A model generated the notes under the pieces. That model saw only the letters and a list, made by a program, of their open reading frames with translations. It was not told the DNA's origin and made no database searches. From positions 1 to 34,575 of the forward strand of contig CAISYL010000026.1 in the NCBI GenBank assembly GCA_903889655.1: a stretch of 34,575 bases of DNA, read 5' to 3'. Within the stretch, counting starts at the first letter, position 1, and each line of letters starts with the position of its first letter. Of the stretch, positions 573-9,253 are shown piece after piece. Made by a program: the position numbers and the translations under genes. The DNA is from an uncultured Alphaproteobacteria bacterium. GTDB taxonomy: Bacteria; Pseudomonadota; Alphaproteobacteria; Parvibaculales; Parvibaculaceae.

Positions 573-1262
573 TCAATCGAGCCGCAGCCGGTAGCCAACG
601 CCCGTTTCGGTCAGGATCAGCTGCGGACGGGTCGGATCGGCCTCGAGCTTTTCCCGCAATTGGCGGATATAGACACGGAGATATTGCACGTCTTCCGTAT
701 GGGCGGGCCCCCATACCTCCTTGAGCAGGAAGCCATGCGTCAGCACCTTGCCCGCATGTGCGATAAGGAGCCGCAAAAGGTCGTACTCCTTCGCGGAGAG
801 CTTCACGTCTTCATCGCCGACCGTCACCACGCGGCGCACGAGATCGACGGACAGCGCTCCGCTGCGGAAGATCGGCGCCTCTCCCTGCACTTGCAACCTG
901 TGGCGCAGGGCGGCACGGACGCGGGCGACCAGCTCCTCCATGCCGAATGGTTTCGTCACATAGTCGTCGGCGCCGAGATCGAGCGCGCGCACCTTGCCTT
1001 GCTCATCGCTGCGCACGGAGAGCACGATGATCGGAACCTGCGATTGCGCGCGCAGGCTTTCGATGACGGAAAAGCCGTCGCCGTCGGGCAGACCGAGATC
1101 GAGGATGACGAGGTCCGGCTTCTCCTTCGTCGCCATCGCCTGTGCTTCGGCTGCATTCACCGCCTCCGTCAGGCGAAAGCCCTGCGCGCCAAGGCTTGTG
1201 CGCAGGAAACGACGGATTTGCGGCTCGTCGTCGACGACGAGGATATGGGTCTGGGCGGTCAT
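573..1262 (-). CDS. kdpE: KdpE, response regulator of the Kdp potassium system
   Basis: This is a 229-residue OmpR/PhoB-family response regulator. The receiver domain (about 5-118) shows the acidic pair D11-D12, the phospho-acceptor D55 in VILDLGLPDGDG, and the conserved lysine in YVTKPFG. A winged-helix DNA-binding domain (about 130-226) ends in the typical ETGVGYRL hairpin. Its start codon overlaps the stop of kdpD by four bases (ATGA), so the sensor and regulator are translationally coupled. It should be phosphorylated by KdpD when potassium or turgor is low and then activate the operon promoter upstream of kdpF. It is the last gene of the operon. No hairpin terminator is visible in the 26 bases before the convergent tRNA. 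Confidence 0.96.
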   Translation of the reverse strand: MTAQTHILVVDDEPQIRRFLRTSLGAQGFRLTEAVNAAEAQAMATKEKPDLVILDLGLPDGDGFSVIESLRAQSQVPIIVLSVRSDEQGKVRALDLGADDYVTKPFGMEELVARVRAALRHRLQVQGEAPIFRSGALSVDLVRRVVTVGDEDVKLSAKEYDLLRLLIAHAGKVLTHGFLLKEVWGPAHTEDVQYLRVYIRQLREKLEADPTRPQLILTETGVGYRLRLD

Positions 1263-3955
1263 GCTTTGCGCTCTGCTACGTCGGAGGAGCCGGCCGGCAG
1301 CGCGATGGTGAATTGCGCACCGCGTCGGTCGCTCCGGTTGGTGGCGATGATGTGGCCGCCGAAGGCTTCGACAAAACCCCGGCAGACGGCGAGGCCGAGC
1401 CCCGTTCCGGCAGGCCGCTGGTCGCCGGCGCGCACGCGGTGGAACTTGTCGAAGATGAGGTCGATCTCGTCCGGCGGTATGCCTTCGCCTTCATCGGTCA
1501 CGCGGATGAGAATTTCTCCGCGGGCGTGATCGGCGTCGACGCGGATGAGGCTACCCGCCGGAGAATATTTCGCCGCATTGTCGAGAAGATTGAAGATGAC
1601 CTGTTCGAGCAGGACCGCATCGGCGCGGACGGGAGGCAACCCCGAGGACAAGTCGACTTCGACGCGATGCTTCGACAGCATGCGCGCGGCGCGGCGCAAA
1701 GCCGTCTCGATCAGTTCGCTGATCTCGACACGGTCGGCACGGATGTTGAGCGCGCCGGATTCGAGGCGTGTGATGTCGAGGAGATTGCCGACGAAACGAT
1801 TGAGACGTTCGGCCTCGTCTTCGATGGTGGCGACGAGCTCGGTTCGCTGCTTGGCGTCGTACTGGTCGAAATAGCTTCGCAGGCTCGACGCCGCACCGAT
1901 GATCGAGGCGAGCGGCGTTCTGAGATCGTGCGAGATGGAGGTGAGGAGCGCGCCGCGCAGACGCTCAGTCTCGCTCATCAGCCGTGCATTATCGACGTCC
2001 TCCCCGAGACGGATGCGCTCGATGGAAACCGCGATCTGGTCGAGCAGGGCGTCGAGAAGCCGGCGTTCGTCGGCCGTAAAAAGCGGTCCCGGCGCTTCGC
2101 GATCGAGGCCGACGACGGCCAGGAGGCCGGTTGCGGTCTTGATCGGCAGGAAGAGACGTTTGGCGCCGGGCAGCGTGTCCGAGCCGCGACCAGCGGCTTG
2201 CTGATGGTCATAGGCCCAGCGGGCGGCGGCGAGATCCGCTTCGTCCGCGACGTCTTCGGGCGGATAGGCGGCGGCGACGCTCATATGTCCTTCGGCAGGA
2301 AAGAGAAAGACCACGCGCAGCTTCAGCATGGACGCGATCTGGAAGGCGGCCGCCCAAAGAAGATCGTCGAGATCGTCGATGCCGGCGAGCTTGCGGCTGA
2401 AGGAGTTGAGTTCCGACGTCGTCTTGACCTGCGATTGGGCGACGACGATCTGGCGTCTCGTGCGTGCTGTCAGATTGCTGGTGAGAACGGCGACGATGGT
2501 GAAGAAAATGAGCGCGAGGATGTTCGCGGGATCGGTGATCGTGAAGGTGTAGAGCGGTGCCAGAAAAAAGAAGTTGTAGGCGAGCGTACTGATCAGTGAG
2601 GCATAGAGTGACGGCCATAGTCCGTAATTGACGGCCGTGTAGAGAATGGCCGCCAGAAAGACGAGGGAGATGTTGGGCAGTGGCACGATGGACTGGATCA
2701 GCTCGCCGATGGCAAGCGCCGCGACGACGGTGAGTGTGCTGATCCCGTAGGGAACGGGATCGATACCGTCGGCTGCAACGCGGGTGCGGACCGGTTTGCT
2801 TGCCGCGCCTTCGTCATCGCCCGGCACGATGTGAATGCCGATCGGTCCGGCGTCGCGAATGAGATTGCTGACGATCGTCGGCCGCAGCATGCCGAACCAA
2901 TGGGCGCCATTTGGCCTGCCGAGTACGATCTGCGTCACGTTATTCTCGCGCGCATAGTCGAGGATCGCCTCGGAGAGCCGTTCGCCTGTCAGCATGACGG
3001 CCTCGCCGCCGAGCGTTTCGGCGAGCCGGAAGGCCTCGCTCATCCTGTCGCGGTCGGCCTCGGTCAACGGAACATGGCCCAGCGTCTCGACATGGATCGC
3101 CGCCCATGTGCAGCGCAGGCGATCGGCCGCACGGCGTGCATAGCGCACCAGGCCGACGGAGGCCGGGCCCCCGTCGATGCAGACGAGAAGCCGCTCGTCG
3201 GTCGCCCAGGGCCCGGCGATCGCATGCGCGCGCATATAGCTCAGCATCTGCTCGTCGACGCGCTGGGCGGTGCGCCGGAGCGCCAGCTCGCGCAATGCGG
3301 TCAGATTGCCGGGCGAAAAATAATGTTTCAGCGCGCGTTGCGCGGCGTCGCGGACATAGACCTTGCCTTCATGAAGACGCTGGATCAGCTCTTCCGGCGT
3401 GATGTCGATGACTTCGATTTCGTCGGCCCGATCGATGATCGAGTCCGGCACCGTCTCGCGGACGCGGATGCGCGTGATCTGGGCGACGACGTCGTTGAGG
3501 CTCTCGACATGCTGGACATTGAGCGTCGTATAGACGTCGATGCCGGCGTCGAGCAGCTCCTCGACATCCTGATAGCGTTTGGGATGGCGCGATCCCGGCG
3601 CATTGGTGTGAGCGAGTTCGTCGACGAGAACGAGGGAAGGGCGGCGCGCAAGCACCGCGTCGATATCCATCTCCTCGAGAATGCGGCCCTTGTAGGCGAT
3701 GCGGGCGCGGGGGAGAGCGTCGAGGCCGCGCGTCAGCCTTTCGGTCTCCGCGCGGCCGTGCGTTTCGACGATGCCGATGACGACATCGATGCCTTCTCTC
3801 TGACGCTGTGCACCCGAACTCAACATCTCGTAGGTCTTCCCGACACCGGGCGCGGCACCGAGAAATATCTTGAGCTTGCCGCGCCCTTCCGCCGCTACCT
3901 GTTCCAGCAAGGCTTCAGGGGTAGGCCGTCTTGCCGTCTGGTCGGTGCTTGTCAT
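1259..3955 (-). CDS. kdpD: KdpD, potassium-sensing histidine kinase
   Basis: This 898-residue membrane histidine kinase has the full KdpD architecture. An N-terminal KdpD domain carries Walker A GAAPGVGKT (33-41) and Walker B LVLVDELAH (108-116). A universal-stress-protein-like domain spans about 255-380. Four closely packed membrane segments span about 405-495, and a GAF-like region about 520-645. The HisKA domain has the phospho-acceptor H676 in SISHDLRTPL. The ATPase domain has the N box (NLLDNAAKYSP) and GTGLGLAVCRGF. It phosphorylates KdpE and controls kdpFABC. It starts 23 bases after kdpC with AGGGAT as ribosome-binding site, and its stop overlaps the kdpE start. Length and domain order match the family. 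Confidence 0.97.
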   Translation of the reverse strand: MTSTDQTARRPTPEALLEQVAAEGRGKLKIFLGAAPGVGKTYEMLSSGAQRQREGIDVVIGIVETHGRAETERLTRGLDALPRARIAYKGRILEEMDIDAVLARRPSLVLVDELAHTNAPGSRHPKRYQDVEELLDAGIDVYTTLNVQHVESLNDVVAQITRIRVRETVPDSIIDRADEIEVIDITPEELIQRLHEGKVYVRDAAQRALKHYFSPGNLTALRELALRRTAQRVDEQMLSYMRAHAIAGPWATDERLLVCIDGGPASVGLVRYARRAADRLRCTWAAIHVETLGHVPLTEADRDRMSEAFRLAETLGGEAVMLTGERLSEAILDYARENNVTQIVLGRPNGAHWFGMLRPTIVSNLIRDAGPIGIHIVPGDDEGAASKPVRTRVAADGIDPVPYGISTLTVVAALAIGELIQSIVPLPNISLVFLAAILYTAVNYGLWPSLYASLISTLAYNFFFLAPLYTFTITDPANILALIFFTIVAVLTSNLTARTRRQIVVAQSQVKTTSELNSFSRKLAGIDDLDDLLWAAAFQIASMLKLRVVFLFPAEGHMSVAAAYPPEDVADEADLAAARWAYDHQQAAGRGSDTLPGAKRLFLPIKTATGLLAVVGLDREAPGPLFTADERRLLDALLDQIAVSIERIRLGEDVDNARLMSETERLRGALLTSISHDLRTPLASIIGAASSLRSYFDQYDAKQRTELVATIEDEAERLNRFVGNLLDITRLESGALNIRADRVEISELIETALRRAARMLSKHRVEVDLSSGLPPVRADAVLLEQVIFNLLDNAAKYSPAGSLIRVDADHARGEILIRVTDEGEGIPPDEIDLIFDKFHRVRAGDQRPAGTGLGLAVCRGFVEAFGGHIIATNRSDRRGAQFTIALPAGSSDVAERKA

Positions 3956-3978: not shown

Positions 3979-4578
3979 TTATCCCGTCACACCGGCGTCG
4001 AGAGCCATGTTGAGCTTCAGGACATTGACGGTCGGTTCGCCGATGATACCGATCGTTCGTGGCTTCGTGAACTGGTCTACGAGCGCCTGAACCTTGGCTG
4101 GATCGAGATTCCGGGCCTTGGCGACGCGGGGAACCTGGAAAAGCGCCGCGGCGGGCGTGATATCGGGATCGAAGCCGCTCGCCGATGTCGTGACCATATC
4201 GACGGGGACGGGCGCACCGGGATTCTCGGCCTTGAGCTTGTCGACATCGCCCTTGATACGGTCCATCAACGCCTTGCTCGTCGGCCCGAGATTGGAGCCC
4301 ATCGAGTTCGCGGCATTGTTGGGCAGCGAGATCGAATTGCCCTTGTCGTCGGTCCCCGTCGTCGCCGACGGCCGGCCGTGGAAGTATTTCTCGCTCGTGA
4401 AGGTCTGGCCGATGATCTCGGAGCCGATCACGGTGCCGTTCTTTACGATAAGGCTGCCTTCCGCCTGATGCGGAAAGAAGGTCTTTGCGACGCGGGTCAT
4501 GCCGAGCGGATAGGCAAGACCGAGGAGCAGCGTGAAGAGTGCAAGCAGAACGATGGCAGGACGGATTTCTTTCAACAT
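3979..4578 (-). CDS. kdpC: KdpC, accessory subunit of the potassium-transporting ATPase
   Basis: This is a 199-residue protein with one N-terminal membrane helix (about 7-26, rich in Leu/Val/Ala) and a periplasmic domain typical of KdpC, including [19 protein letters not shown] and the [10 protein letters not shown] segment that family members use near the start of the soluble domain. KdpC stabilises the KdpA-KdpB complex and raises its potassium/ATP affinity. It follows kdpB after 11 bases, as expected for an FABC order. Nothing appears truncated. Confidence 0.95.
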
Positions 4579-4589
4579 GGTTCTATTCC

Positions 4590-6677
4590 TCAGACGAGCC
4601 CGATCGTCGTGATGATGACATCGATGAGCTTGATGCCGATGAAGGGGACGATCACGCCGCCGGCGCCGTAAATCAGAAGGTTGCGGACCAGGAAGGCGGC
4701 CGCGCTGCGCGGCGTGTACTGGACGCCCCTGAGTGCGAGCGGGATCAGGGCGATGATGATCAGTGCATTGAAGATGATCGCGGACAGGATCGCGCTTTGC
4801 GGGGTCGCGAGGTGCATGATGTTGAGCACGCCGAGGCCCGGATAGAAGACCGCGAACATGGCCGGGATGATGGCGAAGTATTTCGCGACGTCGTTGGCGA
4901 TCGAGAATGTCGTCAGCGTTCCGCGCGTCATCAGCAATTGCTTGCCGATGGCCACGATCTCGATGAGCTTGGTCGGATCGCTGTCGAGGTCGATCATGTT
5001 GCCGGCTTCGCGGGCGGCTTGCGTGCCTGTCTGCATGGCGACGCCGACATCAGCCTGCGCGAGAGCGGGGGCGTCGTTCGTGCCGTCGCCGCACATGGCG
5101 ACGAGCTTGCCCTTGGCCTGCTCTTCGCGGATGAGGCTCAGCTTGTCTTCCGGCGTCGCCTGGGCGAGGAAGTCGTCCACGCCCGATTCCGCCGCGATGG
5201 CGGCGGCCGTCAACGGGTTGTCGCCGGTGATCATGATGGTGCGGATGCCCATCCGGCGGAGCGCGGCAAAGCGTTCGCGGATACCGCCCTTGATGATGTC
5301 CTTAAGATGGATGACGCCGAGAATGGCGTTGTCCTTCGAGACGGCGAGCGGCGTGCCGCCGGCGCGCGCTATGCGGTCGACAACCTGCTGAAACTCCTTC
5401 GGCACGACGGCATTCGGCGCATTCGTGCTGACGAATTTGAGGATCGAGTCGGCGGCACCCTTGCGGATACGGTGACCGTCGACGTCGATGCCGCTCATGC
5501 GCGTCTGCGCGGAGAAGGGAATGAAGGTCGCATGGAGATTGGCGAGTTCGCGTCCACGCAGGCCGTATTTTTCCTTGGCCAGAACCACGATGGAACGGCC
5601 TTCCGGCGTTTCGTCGCTCAGAGAAGAGAGCTGGGCGGCGTCGGCGAGATCCTGGTCGCTGACGCCGGGCATCGCGACGAATTCGCTGGCGACGCGATTG
5701 CCGAGCGTAATGGTGCCCGTCTTGTCGAGAAGCAGCGTATCGACGTCGCCCGCGGCTTCGACGGCTCGCCCCGACATGGCAAGCACATTGAACTTGACCA
5801 GGCGGTCCATGCCCGCAATGCCGATGGCCGACAGCAATGCGCCGATGGTCGTCGGAATGAGGGTAACAAAGAGCGCAACCAGAACCGTGACCGAGACCGT
5901 GCCGCCGGCATAGGCGGCAAAGCTCGGGATCGTCACCGTCGCGAAGAGGAAGATGATGGTGAGGCCGACGAGAAGGATATTGAGCGCAATCTCGTTCGGC
6001 GTCTTTTGACGCTCCGCGCCTTCGACGAGATGGATCATCCGGTCGAGGAAGGTCGAGCCCTGAGCCGCCGTGATGCGGACCTTGATCTGGTCCGACAGCA
6101 CGCGCGTGCCACCGGTGACAGCCGAGCGGTCGCCGCCGCTCTCGCGGATGACAGGCGCGGATTCGCCGGTGATGGCGGATTCGTCGACCGAGGCGACGCC
6201 TTCGATGACTTCGCCGTCGCTCGGGATCAGGTCATTGACCTCGGCGAGAACGATGTCGCCGACCTTGAGCTGGGCGGCAGGCACGATTTCATACTGGGTG
6301 CCGTCTCTTTTCAGGAGCTTGGCAACGGCTTCGGACCGCGTGCGGCGGAGTGCATCGGCCTGGGCCTTGCCGCGGCCCTCGGCCAGTGCCTCGGCAAAGT
6401 TCGCGAAGATGACCGTGAACCACAGCCAGAAGACGATCTGCACGGTGAAGCCGAGATGGGCGCCGCCGGTTGCGAGGTCACGTACCAGCAAAACGGTCGT
6501 CAGTGCGGCGACGATCTCGACGACGAACATGACCGGATTCTTGATCAGGGTTCGCGGGCTGAGCTTGACGAGGGAGTCGATGATCGCCTGCCTGACGAGG
6601 TCGCCCCGGAAGAGCGACGACGTCTTGATGCGATGAGACGAAGGTTCGCCGGCCATCGGATTGTGAGCGAGTGACAT
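4590..6677 (-). CDS. kdpB: KdpB, P-type ATPase subunit of the potassium pump
   Basis: This 695-residue type IA P-ATPase is the energising subunit of KdpFABC. The phosphorylated aspartate is D318 in [10 protein letters not shown]. The actuator loop TGES lies at 170-173; the serine corresponds to the residue whose phosphorylation inhibits the E. coli pump. The nucleotide-binding and hinge motifs [14 protein letters not shown] and [20 protein letters not shown] are intact. Several hydrophobic segments (about 50-95, 235-285, and 590 to the end) agree with seven membrane helices. It follows kdpA after 9 bases. Confidence 0.97.
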
Positions 6678-6686
6678 GGTTGTTCC

Positions 6687-8414
6687 TCAGTAAAGCGTGC
6701 CGTGGATCATCGAGAAGTGTTCGACGATCGGACCGAGCGAGAGGGCGGGGAAGTAGGTAAGGCCGCCCACGATGATGATGACCGCGATGAGGATCGCGAC
6801 GAAGAGGCCGCCATCCGTCGGGAACGTTCCGGCGGAAGAAGCGACGACCTTCTTGCGGGCAAGGGAGCCGGCGACGGCGAGCATCGGCACGATCATTCCG
6901 AAGCGGCCGATCGCCATCGCGAGCCCGAGCGTGATGTTGTAGAAGGGCGTATTGCCCGTCAGGCCGCCGAAGGCGCTGCCGTTGTTGGCCGTCGTCGAGC
7001 TGAAGGCGTAGAGGATTTCACTGAAGCCATGAGGGCCGGCATTGGCGATGCTCGACACGCCGAAGGGAAGCGAGCTTGCAAGCGCAGTGAAACCGAGCGT
7101 CGAGAAGGGCAGGATGATGATGGCGAGCGCCGTCATCTTGACGTCGTAGCCCTCGATCTTCTTGCCGACATATTCCGGCGTGCGTCCGACCATCAGGCCG
7201 GCGATGAAGACCGCGACCACCGCAAAGAGCAGCATGCCGTAGAGGCCCGAGCCGACACCGCCGAAGATGATCTCCCCGAGCTCCATGTTGACGAGCGGCA
7301 CGAGGCCGGCCAGCGGCGTGAAGCTGTCATGCCAGGCGATGATGGCGCCGCAGGACGCATCCGTGGTGACTGTGGCGAATAGCGCGGAGTTCGCGATGCC
7401 GAAGCGGACATCCTTGCCCTCCATGTTGCCGCCCGGTTGAAACGCTGTCGTCGTCTGATCGACGCCGAGAGCGGCAATATTCGGATTGCCGACCGCTTCG
7501 AAGTGATAGGCGACGAGAGCGCCGACCAGGAACAATATGCTCATGGTGCCGAACAGCGCCCAGCCCTGCCATTCGTTGCCGACCATGCGGCCGAAGACGT
7601 TGGTGAGTGCCGCGCCGATCGCGAAGATCAGAACCATCTGGACGAGATTGGTCAGCGCGTTCGGATTCTCGAAAGGATGGGCCGAATTGGCGTTGAAGAA
7701 GCCGCCGCCATTGGTGCCGAACATCTTGATCACTTCCTGGGAAGCGACCGGACCGACGGCTATGCTCTGATGCGCGCCCTCGATAGTCGTCGCATCGACA
7801 TAGGCGCCGAGCGTCTGCGGCATGCCCTGCCAGATGAAGAAGAGGCCGACGACGATCGAGACGGGGAGAAGCACATAGAGCGAGCACCGGGTGAGATCGA
7901 CCCAGAAATTGCCGAGCCCGTTGGCGGAAGCGCGCGAGAATCCGCGGATAAAGGCAAGCGCCAGCGCGATGCCGGTGGCCGCAGAAACGAAGTTGTGAAC
8001 GGTGAGGCCGGCCATCTGCGTGAAATAGCTCAGCGTCGTCTCGCCGCCGTAATTCTGCCAGTTCGTATTGGTGACGAAGGAGATCGCCGTGTTGAAGGCA
8101 AGCATCGGCTCCACGGCGCCGAAACCCTGCGGATTAAAGGGCAGGTAGCCCTGAAGCCGCAGCATGGCGTAGAGGAGAATGAAGCAGGCGAGATTGAACA
8201 TCAGCATCGCGCCGCCATAGCGGAGCCAATGCTGGTCATCTTTTTCATCGACGCCGGCAAGTTTGTAGAAGACGACTTCGATAGGCCGGAGGATCGGCGT
8301 GAGGAAGACATAGTCTCCCTTGAACACGCGGGTCATGTAGCCGCCGAGGGGGCGGGCCACAAGCAGGATGATCACGCTGAAGATCGCGATCTGGATAAGA
8401 CCGTTGGCTGTCAT
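6687..8414 (-). CDS. kdpA: KdpA, potassium-channel-like subunit
   Basis: This is a 575-residue polytopic membrane protein of the superfamily of potassium transporters, carrying the selectivity filter of the Kdp pump. The four filter repeats are recognisable: [13 protein letters not shown] (113-125), [12 protein letters not shown] (233-244), the region near [11 protein letters not shown], and [14 protein letters not shown]. The first helix begins immediately ([18 protein letters not shown]). Length agrees with the family (about 560-590). It lies 9 bases after kdpF and 9 before kdpB. Confidence 0.97.
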
Positions 8415-8423
8415 TTCGCGTTC

Positions 8424-8513
8424 CTAGAATTTCTCGGGTCGGGCTAGGACCACGAGCAGGTAGCCAAGAATGAAGAGGGCGACCGCGCCCCCCAGAATGA
8501 GATCGATGCTCAT
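8424..8513 (-). CDS. kdpF: KdpF, small membrane subunit of the potassium pump
   Basis: This 29-residue peptide consists of one hydrophobic helix (roughly residues 5-23) followed by ARPEKF, which matches the KdpF pattern of a single transmembrane segment ending in a short basic or polar tail such as (L/A)xPE(R/K)F. KdpF packs against KdpA and stabilises the complex. The ATG at 8511-8513 has GAGG five to six bases upstream. The gene ends 9 bases before kdpA. Confidence 0.9.
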   Translation of the reverse strand: MSIDLILGGAVALFILGYLLVVLARPEKF

Positions 8514-8520
8514 GAGGTCC

Positions 8521-8604
8521 TCACAACCAGTCGCAGAGATAAAGATAGCCAAAGAGCGCCGCGAAGGACGCGAGCGCGAGGGCAAGCATTTCGAGGTCGA
8601 GCAT
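8521..8604 (-). CDS. 27-residue single-helix membrane peptide leading the kdp operon
   Basis: An open frame of 27 codons begins at ATG 8602-8604 with AAGGA about 11 bases upstream, and ends in TGA at 8521-8523, only 7 bases before kdpF. The peptide begins MLDLEMLALALASFAALFGY and ends LYLCDWL. It has one hydrophobic helix flanked by acidic residues, with no basic tail, so it is not a second KdpF. Its tight spacing makes it very likely co-translated with kdpF. I recall similarly placed tiny membrane ORFs near kdp in other alphaproteobacteria, but I cannot name a family. Met6 is an alternative start. It could be an extra pump subunit or a leader peptide. Confidence 0.65.
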   Translation of the reverse strand: MLDLEMLALALASFAALFGYLYLCDWL

Positions 8605-8867
8605 GGGAAGCGTCCTTCGATGAGGTTCCATAGCGTGGCCGGGAGAAGACACCTGCAACGAAACAAAAATCGAGACGGAAACGGGAACGGGAGAATAAAG
8701 ACGGCATAAAGAGAGCGTCCAATTTCAAAGGACGCTTCGAAGCCGGTCGCAGGCCGGAAAGGCGACGCAGAAGGCTACCGTCGAGGGGCTATAACAGGCG
8801 CAAAATGTGCTGCGGTCCAGCCGAAATGGCTGCGCCGTCCCGTTCTCAGTGTCGCATCGCGCCCGTT
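8605..8867 (-). promoter_or_regulatory. kdp upstream region, non-coding
   Basis: These 263 bases hold no convincing gene. Read on the minus strand, the half nearer the operon is T-rich and contains the direct repeats at 8695-8712. Just upstream lies a perfect 7-bp inverted repeat, AGCGTCC (8714-8720) and GGACGCT (8730-8736), separated by AATTTCAAA. The core AAGCGTCCTTCG recurs next to the start of the 27-residue peptide gene (8607-8618). No textbook -35/-10 pair was found. Confidence 0.45.
8695..8712 (-). promoter_or_regulatory. Candidate KdpE operator: direct repeat TCTTTAT with 11-bp period
   Basis: On the minus strand TCTTTAT occurs twice with starts 11 bases apart (forward-strand ATAAAGA at 8695-8701 and 8706-8712). 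OmpR-family regulators such as KdpE bind tandem direct repeats one helical turn apart, and the E. coli KdpE box is likewise T-rich. The site lies about 90 bases upstream of the first gene of the operon. Assignment to KdpE is inference. Confidence 0.4.
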
Positions 8868-9125
8868 TCAGTCGACCGAGTAGCCCTGCGGCCGATAGAT
8901 GAGGCCGGGGTCGAGGATAAACTCGCCAGGCTTCAGACAGCGAAGGTCGTATTTCCCGTCGGGGTAGCAAGCGGCGACGCCGAGAAAATTATAGTGTTGC
9001 TCCGCCTGATCTATGACGACCGAGTAAATTGGATGGCCGGCAAAATGGCCGAGAAGCTGCCCGGCCGACTGGACGTGCCCTAGAATGCGGTGCTCCGTTG
9101 CCTGATCGGAATCTCTTTGTTTCAT
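8868..9125 (-). CDS. Hypothetical 85-residue protein
   Basis: The minus-strand frame has coding-like codon use (C/G-rich third positions in the second half) and a protein-like composition. There is a core GHFAGHPIYSVVIDQAEQHYN, then an LGVAACYPDG turn, and a proline/glycine-rich end, GEFILDPGLIYRP. The pattern suggests a small soluble beta-rich protein. I do not recognise a named family. Only one Met is present, so the start at 9125 is chosen by default and its ribosome-binding site is weak. It is transcribed towards the kdp operon, from which 263 bases separate it. The antisense frame at 8805-9083 lacks such features. Confidence 0.6.
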   Translation of the reverse strand: MKQRDSDQATEHRILGHVQSAGQLLGHFAGHPIYSVVIDQAEQHYNFLGVAACYPDGKYDLRCLKPGEFILDPGLIYRPQGYSVD

Positions 9126-9253
9126 TCTGACGACACAAAAACCAAAGGCACACGTCGTTGGGATCGAACCTCAGGTCATGGAACAAAGATCGGCATAAAA
9201 ATTCGAGACCGTTTCGGACATGACCATATAAAGGCCGGCCCTGTCGGCGTCCC

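Follow-up and report, generated by a model that had tools for sequence, protein, structure and literature searches.

Textbooks present the potassium pump Kdp as an assembly of four subunits. KdpG, known from cyanobacterial kdp operons, is encoded by an extra small gene and in that respect resembles the peptide gene described here, which we call X, but its place is between kdpB and kdpC; we found no use of the name KdpG in this sense among the literature matches listed. According to the accessible part of one report, the operon starts with kdpF in both E. coli and M. tuberculosis (PMC3618439). X is similar to KdpF in its size of about 26 to 30 residues, in its single hydrophobic helix, and in lying before kdpA in the same operon with close spacing. 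It differs from KdpF in that no sequence relationship was detected, in that its alphaproteobacterial form has D3, F14, Y20, and C24 and no RPE[RK]F end, and in that many kdp loci contain KdpF where X was not found.

Small membrane proteins of this kind have been described for other systems. MgtR, MgtU, and MgtS are very short (30 amino acids for MgtR and 28 for MgtU), and MgtR and MgtU are produced alongside a P-type ATPase, as described in the accessible text of PMC10710835. X is likewise short and single helix, and its gene is also encoded with a P-type ATPase. These three proteins serve other transporters and are likened to X by description, not by sequence, and they contrast with X, which is encoded within the very operon of the partner presumed for it. 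CydX and AcrZ, one-helix proteins attached to a larger membrane complex in the portions of the literature available to us, are the same kind of object as X, but they belong to other complexes and are likened to it by kind, not by homology.

Among the literature matches listed, which covered sources other than supplements and most subscription journals, we found no description of a conserved peptide before kdpF. The main texts of a small-proteome study of S. meliloti (PMC10117765) and of a study of Caulobacter (PMC4117421) contain neither “kdp” nor “potassium,” and the accessible text of a study of small open reading frames in D. radiodurans (PMC9650054) has one “kdp” passage, which names KdpF. 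In Caulobacter, about 100 nucleotides (nt) of structured 5′ sequence are described before kdpF, and the accessible text mentions no further frame there (PMC8552747).

A 27-codon frame precedes kdpF in the window

The window (the whole stretch of DNA analyzed here, 34,575 nt) carries a kdp operon in which X, kdpF, kdpA, kdpB, kdpC, a kdpD-like gene, and a kdpE-like gene lie on one strand, with X upstream. The features, from upstream to downstream, are the following.

8613..8617, minus strand: Shine-Dalgarno-like AAGGA, 8 nt ahead of the ATG of X (read from the sequence; motif frequent in relatives)
8521..8604, minus strand: X, single-helix membrane peptide gene, 27 codons (translation, conservation, and codon-level selection)
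8518..8523, minus strand: TGAGGA, in which the stop of X and a Shine-Dalgarno-like sequence for kdpF overlap (read from the sequence)
8424..8513, minus strand: kdpF (PF09604, 27.5 bits, cutoff 21.2; TIGR02115, 26.9 bits, cutoff 26.85)
6687..8414, minus strand: kdpA (PF03814, 795 bits)
4590..6677, minus strand: kdpB (TIGR01497, 1054.7 bits, cutoff 527.9)
3979..4578, minus strand: kdpC (TIGR00681, 207.5 bits, cutoff 152.55)
1259..3955, minus strand: kdpD-like sensor kinase (best NCBIfam KdpD model NF007793, 766.7 bits, below the cutoff of 1123)
573..1262, minus strand: kdpE-like response regulator (best NCBIfam KdpE model NF007820, 258.3 bits, below the cutoff of 325)

The name X refers to the 27-residue peptide encoded at window positions 8521 to 8604 of the minus strand, whose translation is MLDLEMLALALASFAALFGYLYLCDWL, followed by a TGA stop. 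The original prediction had described a 27-codon frame with a ribosome-binding site, ending 7 bases before kdpF, and we could confirm the AAGGA, the translation, and the spacing, with the 7 bases at 8514 to 8520 separating the stop from the kdpF ATG at 8513. With an in-frame TTG at 8658 as the start, the product would have 45 residues; the conserved N terminus of X relatives starts at the ATG rather than at this upstream TTG. The GAGGA that overlaps the TGA of X is a possible ribosome-binding sequence for kdpF, and this overlap suggests that X and kdpF may be translationally coupled. The peptide had also been described as a hydrophobic helix between acidic ends. The helix, assigned here from hydrophobicity only, is indeed flanked by acidic residues in the window copy (D3, E5, and D25), but this does not extend to its relatives, where the C terminus is mostly C[DE]R plus L or a basic tail such as RLRRR.

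A promoter scan of window positions 8400 to 9200 found none, and the same interval contains one terminator-like site, inside kdpF, where 0.8 are expected by chance. Only a tRNA was matched when Rfam was run over the window. Upstream of the kdp operon and on the same strand lies an 85-codon frame (8868 to 9125, minus strand), which has no Pfam match at an E value of ≤1 and no NCBIfam match at an E value of ≤1e-5.

Conservation and coding potential of X

KdpA-bearing loci were obtained from 4 of 40 genomes of the window's own family (the order-level sample returned the same four), from 42 of 241 genomes of the class, and from 129 of 348 genomes of the phylum, and 80 named loci were retained out of 591. 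The regions upstream of kdpA were examined at 219 loci, 147 alphaproteobacterial and 72 from other Pseudomonadota; the latter are one per nonalphaproteobacterial KdpA-positive genome of the 348-genome sample, whose additional alphaproteobacterial loci were left out. An X-type frame lies upstream of kdpA at 139 of the 147 alphaproteobacterial loci and at 31 of the 72 others, counts in which training and test loci overlap, as both motif and profile were built from these same loci. The 219 loci are also nonindependent: many are rhizobial, L014 is identical to L065, L087 and L168 encode the same peptide on contigs of equal length, and L004 is the window's own locus. Alignment of the region upstream of kdpF in relatives had been proposed as a check on X, and it shows the frame to be conserved; the broken or unconserved frame that was to speak against it was not observed.

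X precedes kdpF at every X-bearing locus except L182 and L198, where the order is kdpF-X-kdpA and the scores of X are weak (15 and 19 bits). No fusion of X with KdpF was seen among the 219 loci. The distance between the two genes is mostly 7 to 17 nt at 129 alphaproteobacterial loci, and among the 23 other loci with a measurable gap, the frames overlap by 4 nt in nine cases and by 1 nt in eight and abut in three. X was not found at eight alphaproteobacterial loci (L005, L011, L240, L243, L245, L248, L249, and L250) or at 41 of the 72 others, 37 of which have a recognizable kdpF. From these 41 loci it follows that not every Kdp pump needs X.

When a model was trained on loci L035 to L114 alone, scores of at least 12 bits were reached at 28 of 33 and 27 of 34 other alphaproteobacterial loci (one of these held-out loci, L014, duplicates a training locus) and at none of the 67 loci on the reverse strand. 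Just 9 of the 72 nonalphaproteobacterial loci reach 12 bits with this rhizobial model, so that the case outside the class rests on a hand-picked model of its own and on profile comparisons. Residues D3, F14, Y20, and C24 are retained in 62, 60, 61, and 62, respectively, of 63 nonredundant alphaproteobacterial sequences. The conservation of X has no significant helical periodicity (P = 0.24 for positions 5 to 24 and P = 0.19 for positions 2 to 27), and hence no contact face is evident.

At the codon level, X has a pN of 0.064, a pS of 0.286, and a pooled dN/dS ratio of 0.187 (31 independent pairs with 5 to 25% of sites differing), compared with a dN/dS ratio of 0.138 for kdpF (38 pairs). We counted 99 residue changes in X versus 181.9 ± 6.4 under random placement, where the lowest of 500 placements gave 163. 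A Shine-Dalgarno-like 4-mer precedes X in 100 of 107 copies; at six shifted positions, such a 4-mer occurs in only 9 to 16 of the 107. The conserved sequence and position, the codon-level selection, and a Shine-Dalgarno-like motif well above background thus set X apart from chance, and we are highly confident that it is a coding gene. The frame is almost certainly a real small membrane-protein gene, widely conserved and frequently omitted by annotation.

Specificity to kdp loci

At an E value of ≤0.01, profile A1 matched 30 of the 241 class genomes, all of them among the 42 KdpA-positive ones and none among the 199 others; 12 of the 42 KdpA-positive genomes gave no match at this threshold. Beside kdpA lie 31 of the 33 matches. 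The two that lie away from kdp, L137 (G067:C9:84617-84697) and L138 (G256:C3:183729-183809), are stand-alone copies from two related genomes that also have a kdp-linked X, and the DNA upstream of the two copies is alike.

Profile A2, built from the X of other classes and phyla, gave 64 matches over the 348 Pseudomonadota genomes, 43 at an E value of ≤1e-4 and 21 weaker ones (1e-4 to 0.01); at an E value of ≤0.01 it does not recover the window's own X. Of the 43 strong matches, 42 have a KdpA match no more than 400 nt away, and the remaining one is followed by kdpF and then by the end of the contig. The weaker matches lie beside kdpA in 14 of 21 cases, and the 7 found elsewhere look like chance matches. 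KdpA was present in 57 of the 62 A2-positive genomes, the other five being four weak cases (E values of 0.008 to 0.009) and the contig-end case. Across the searched genomes, X is thus almost confined to kdp loci.

Occurrence beyond the Alphaproteobacteria

By hhalign, the alphaproteobacterial X and A2 form a single family (probability of 97.9%, E value of 5e-13), and a probability of 97.9% was also obtained between alphaproteobacterial X and the X of other Pseudomonadota, L027 and L241 included. X-like frames occur before kdpF at plasmid-borne loci of Streptomyces (L258, L265, and L267), Nonomuraea (L268), and Rhodococcus (L259 and L270), as well as in D. radiodurans MP1 (L254) and S. meliloti pSymA (L263, 13.9 bits), and in Arthrobacter (L269) such a frame lies inside a longer annotated frame. 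An X-like frame was not seen in the plasmid kdp loci of Lactiplantibacillus (L260), Halobacterium (L262), and Deinococcus sp. D7000 (L261).

Taken singly, the actinomycete frames score low against X (6.9 bits for L258 and under 3 bits for L259). Combined into a profile of their own, six of them reach probabilities of 76.6% to alphaproteobacterial X, 94.2% to nonalphaproteobacterial X, and 1.2% to KdpF, with at most 6.8% for 20 column-shuffled decoys. The codon test on three Streptomyces copies of X was uninformative, with few differences that do not fall mainly at third positions. In the two Deinococcus plasmids examined, X tracks the type of Kdp and not the genus: it is present beside a KdpA that is 52% identical to that of the window and absent beside one that is 39% identical.

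Proposed role in the Kdp pump

Two alternatives had been put forward for X, either an additional small membrane peptide within the Kdp complex or a leader peptide controlling kdpF, and the former is our best reading. Most likely, X is another small protein with one helix that belongs to the Kdp pump beside KdpF, in a structural or a regulatory capacity, and we infer its mechanism as follows. After translation in step with KdpF, X would insert in the inner membrane with its C terminus in the cytoplasm, bind KdpFABC there as another small component of the KdpF kind, and stabilize the pump or tune its assembly, activity, or turnover. The net charge of X is about −1 at the N terminus and +0.2 (alphaproteobacterial set) or +2.1 (nonalphaproteobacterial Pseudomonadota set) at the C terminus, and an acidic N terminus combined with a less acidic or basic C terminus suggests this C-in orientation.

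It is likely that the partner of X is the Kdp machinery. The explanation as a whole, a true gene for a small inner-membrane protein belonging to the Kdp potassium pump, seems to us reasonably probable, and we lean slightly toward a putative component bound to the pump over a protein acting on KdpD or a protease. Chances are about even that this unnamed family, found in at least three phyla, represents a fifth and mostly unannotated Kdp component, a one-helix peptide that would bind and regulate a P-type ATPase complex and be missing from loci resembling the E. coli type, the type behind the known Kdp structures. If this is true, there is one more component in a large share of Kdp pumps, namely, in those of many Alphaproteobacteria, of other Pseudomonadota including Burkholderiaceae, and of actinomycetes. 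X also illustrates that operon context together with codon-level selection can reveal transporter microproteins omitted by annotation.

X could instead be a nonstoichiometric regulatory protein of the membrane, produced with the pump, that controls KdpD or the turnover of the pump in the way that MgtR, MgtU, and MgtS act on P-type Mg2+ ATPases. We consider this less likely, although small proteins control the P-type ATPases MgtA and MgtB through FtsH (accessible text of PMC10710835) and KdpF reportedly interacts with KdpD in a two-hybrid assay (accessible part of PMC3618439). The patchy presence of X and its stand-alone copies would suit a regulator; the tight pairing of X with kdpF, however, suits coassembly equally well.

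A leader peptide, whose translation would control the translation of kdpF or the transcription of the operon and whose own sequence would be secondary, is improbable. In its favor, no other frame separates X from kdpF in the window, the stop of X overlaps the possible kdpF ribosome-binding sequence, and for Caulobacter kdp both a structured 5′ region and possible attenuation by Rho have been reported (accessible part of PMC8552747). Against this role, the protein-level selection on X is close to that on kdpF, and there is no excess of RNA structure: minimum-energy folding is ordinary both in the window (z = 0.11) and at 57 loci compared with synonymous-codon shuffles (mean z = 0.14). In addition, L137 and L138 carry X away from kdp, and the weakly scored L182 and L198 carry it after kdpF. 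The selection on the protein, the lack of RNA structure, and the stand-alone copies thus favor a small protein of the membrane whose target is the pump, whether as a bound component or as a regulator resembling MgtR and MgtU.

It is likewise improbable that X arose by duplication of KdpF and, though diverged, does the same job. The two share a like size, a single helix, adjacent genes, and the same inferred C-in orientation, but A1 compared with KdpF alignment A3 gives a probability of 0.8% (13.5% and 7.8% with other alignments), no KdpF model (PF09604 or TIGR02115) matches any of the 44 A1 or 30 A2 members at an E value of ≤1, and X lacks the C-terminal RPE[RK]F of KdpF. The profile comparisons lend no support to a common origin of X and KdpF. 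Among solved structures, the sole match of A1 is at chance level (E value of 0.25, to a mitochondrial subunit), and the KdpF of the window found nothing. Finally, a chance open frame without a product would fit the shortness of X and its frequent omission by annotation, but conservation, codon-level selection, the Shine-Dalgarno-like motif, and the kdp-linked profile matches strongly oppose it and make it hardly credible.

Annotation of X and further small frames in kdp loci

No Pfam or NCBIfam model scored above its cutoff for the 74 X members (44 from A1 and 30 from A2). The expectation that gene finders skip so short a frame was borne out in plasmid records: among the 40 listed out of 180 that contain a relative, the position is without a feature in 33, the record is unannotated in 4, and 3 have a “hypothetical protein,” which is X's own frame in two cases and an overlapping frame of the opposite strand in one. 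In another case, the “hypothetical protein” is a longer frame that encloses X. The gene tables behind these counts are incomplete by design, as is that of R. johnstonii pRL11, which lists no gene at X. In Mycetohabitans, X is labeled “potassium ABC transporter ATPase” in 8 of 9 records (e.g., WP_191287747.1).

Other short frames were observed in kdp loci. Three Bradyrhizobium-looking loci (L164, L166, and L169) have an extra hydrophobic frame of 28 to 31 codons between kdpF and kdpA, possibly encoding yet another small peptide, the third linked to Kdp; one of the three was scanned against Pfam and had no match. A different hydrophobic frame of 28 codons lies just after kdpF and before kdpA in Deinococcus sp. 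D7000 (L261). At L248 (G042:C8), a second kdpA, divergently placed and without a recognizable kdpF, is directly preceded by a hydrophobic 38-codon frame with an ACDRL motif. In Phyllobacterium sp. T1018 (L253), a “hypothetical protein” of 57 residues (WP_153669709.1) is encoded between kdpA and kdpB.
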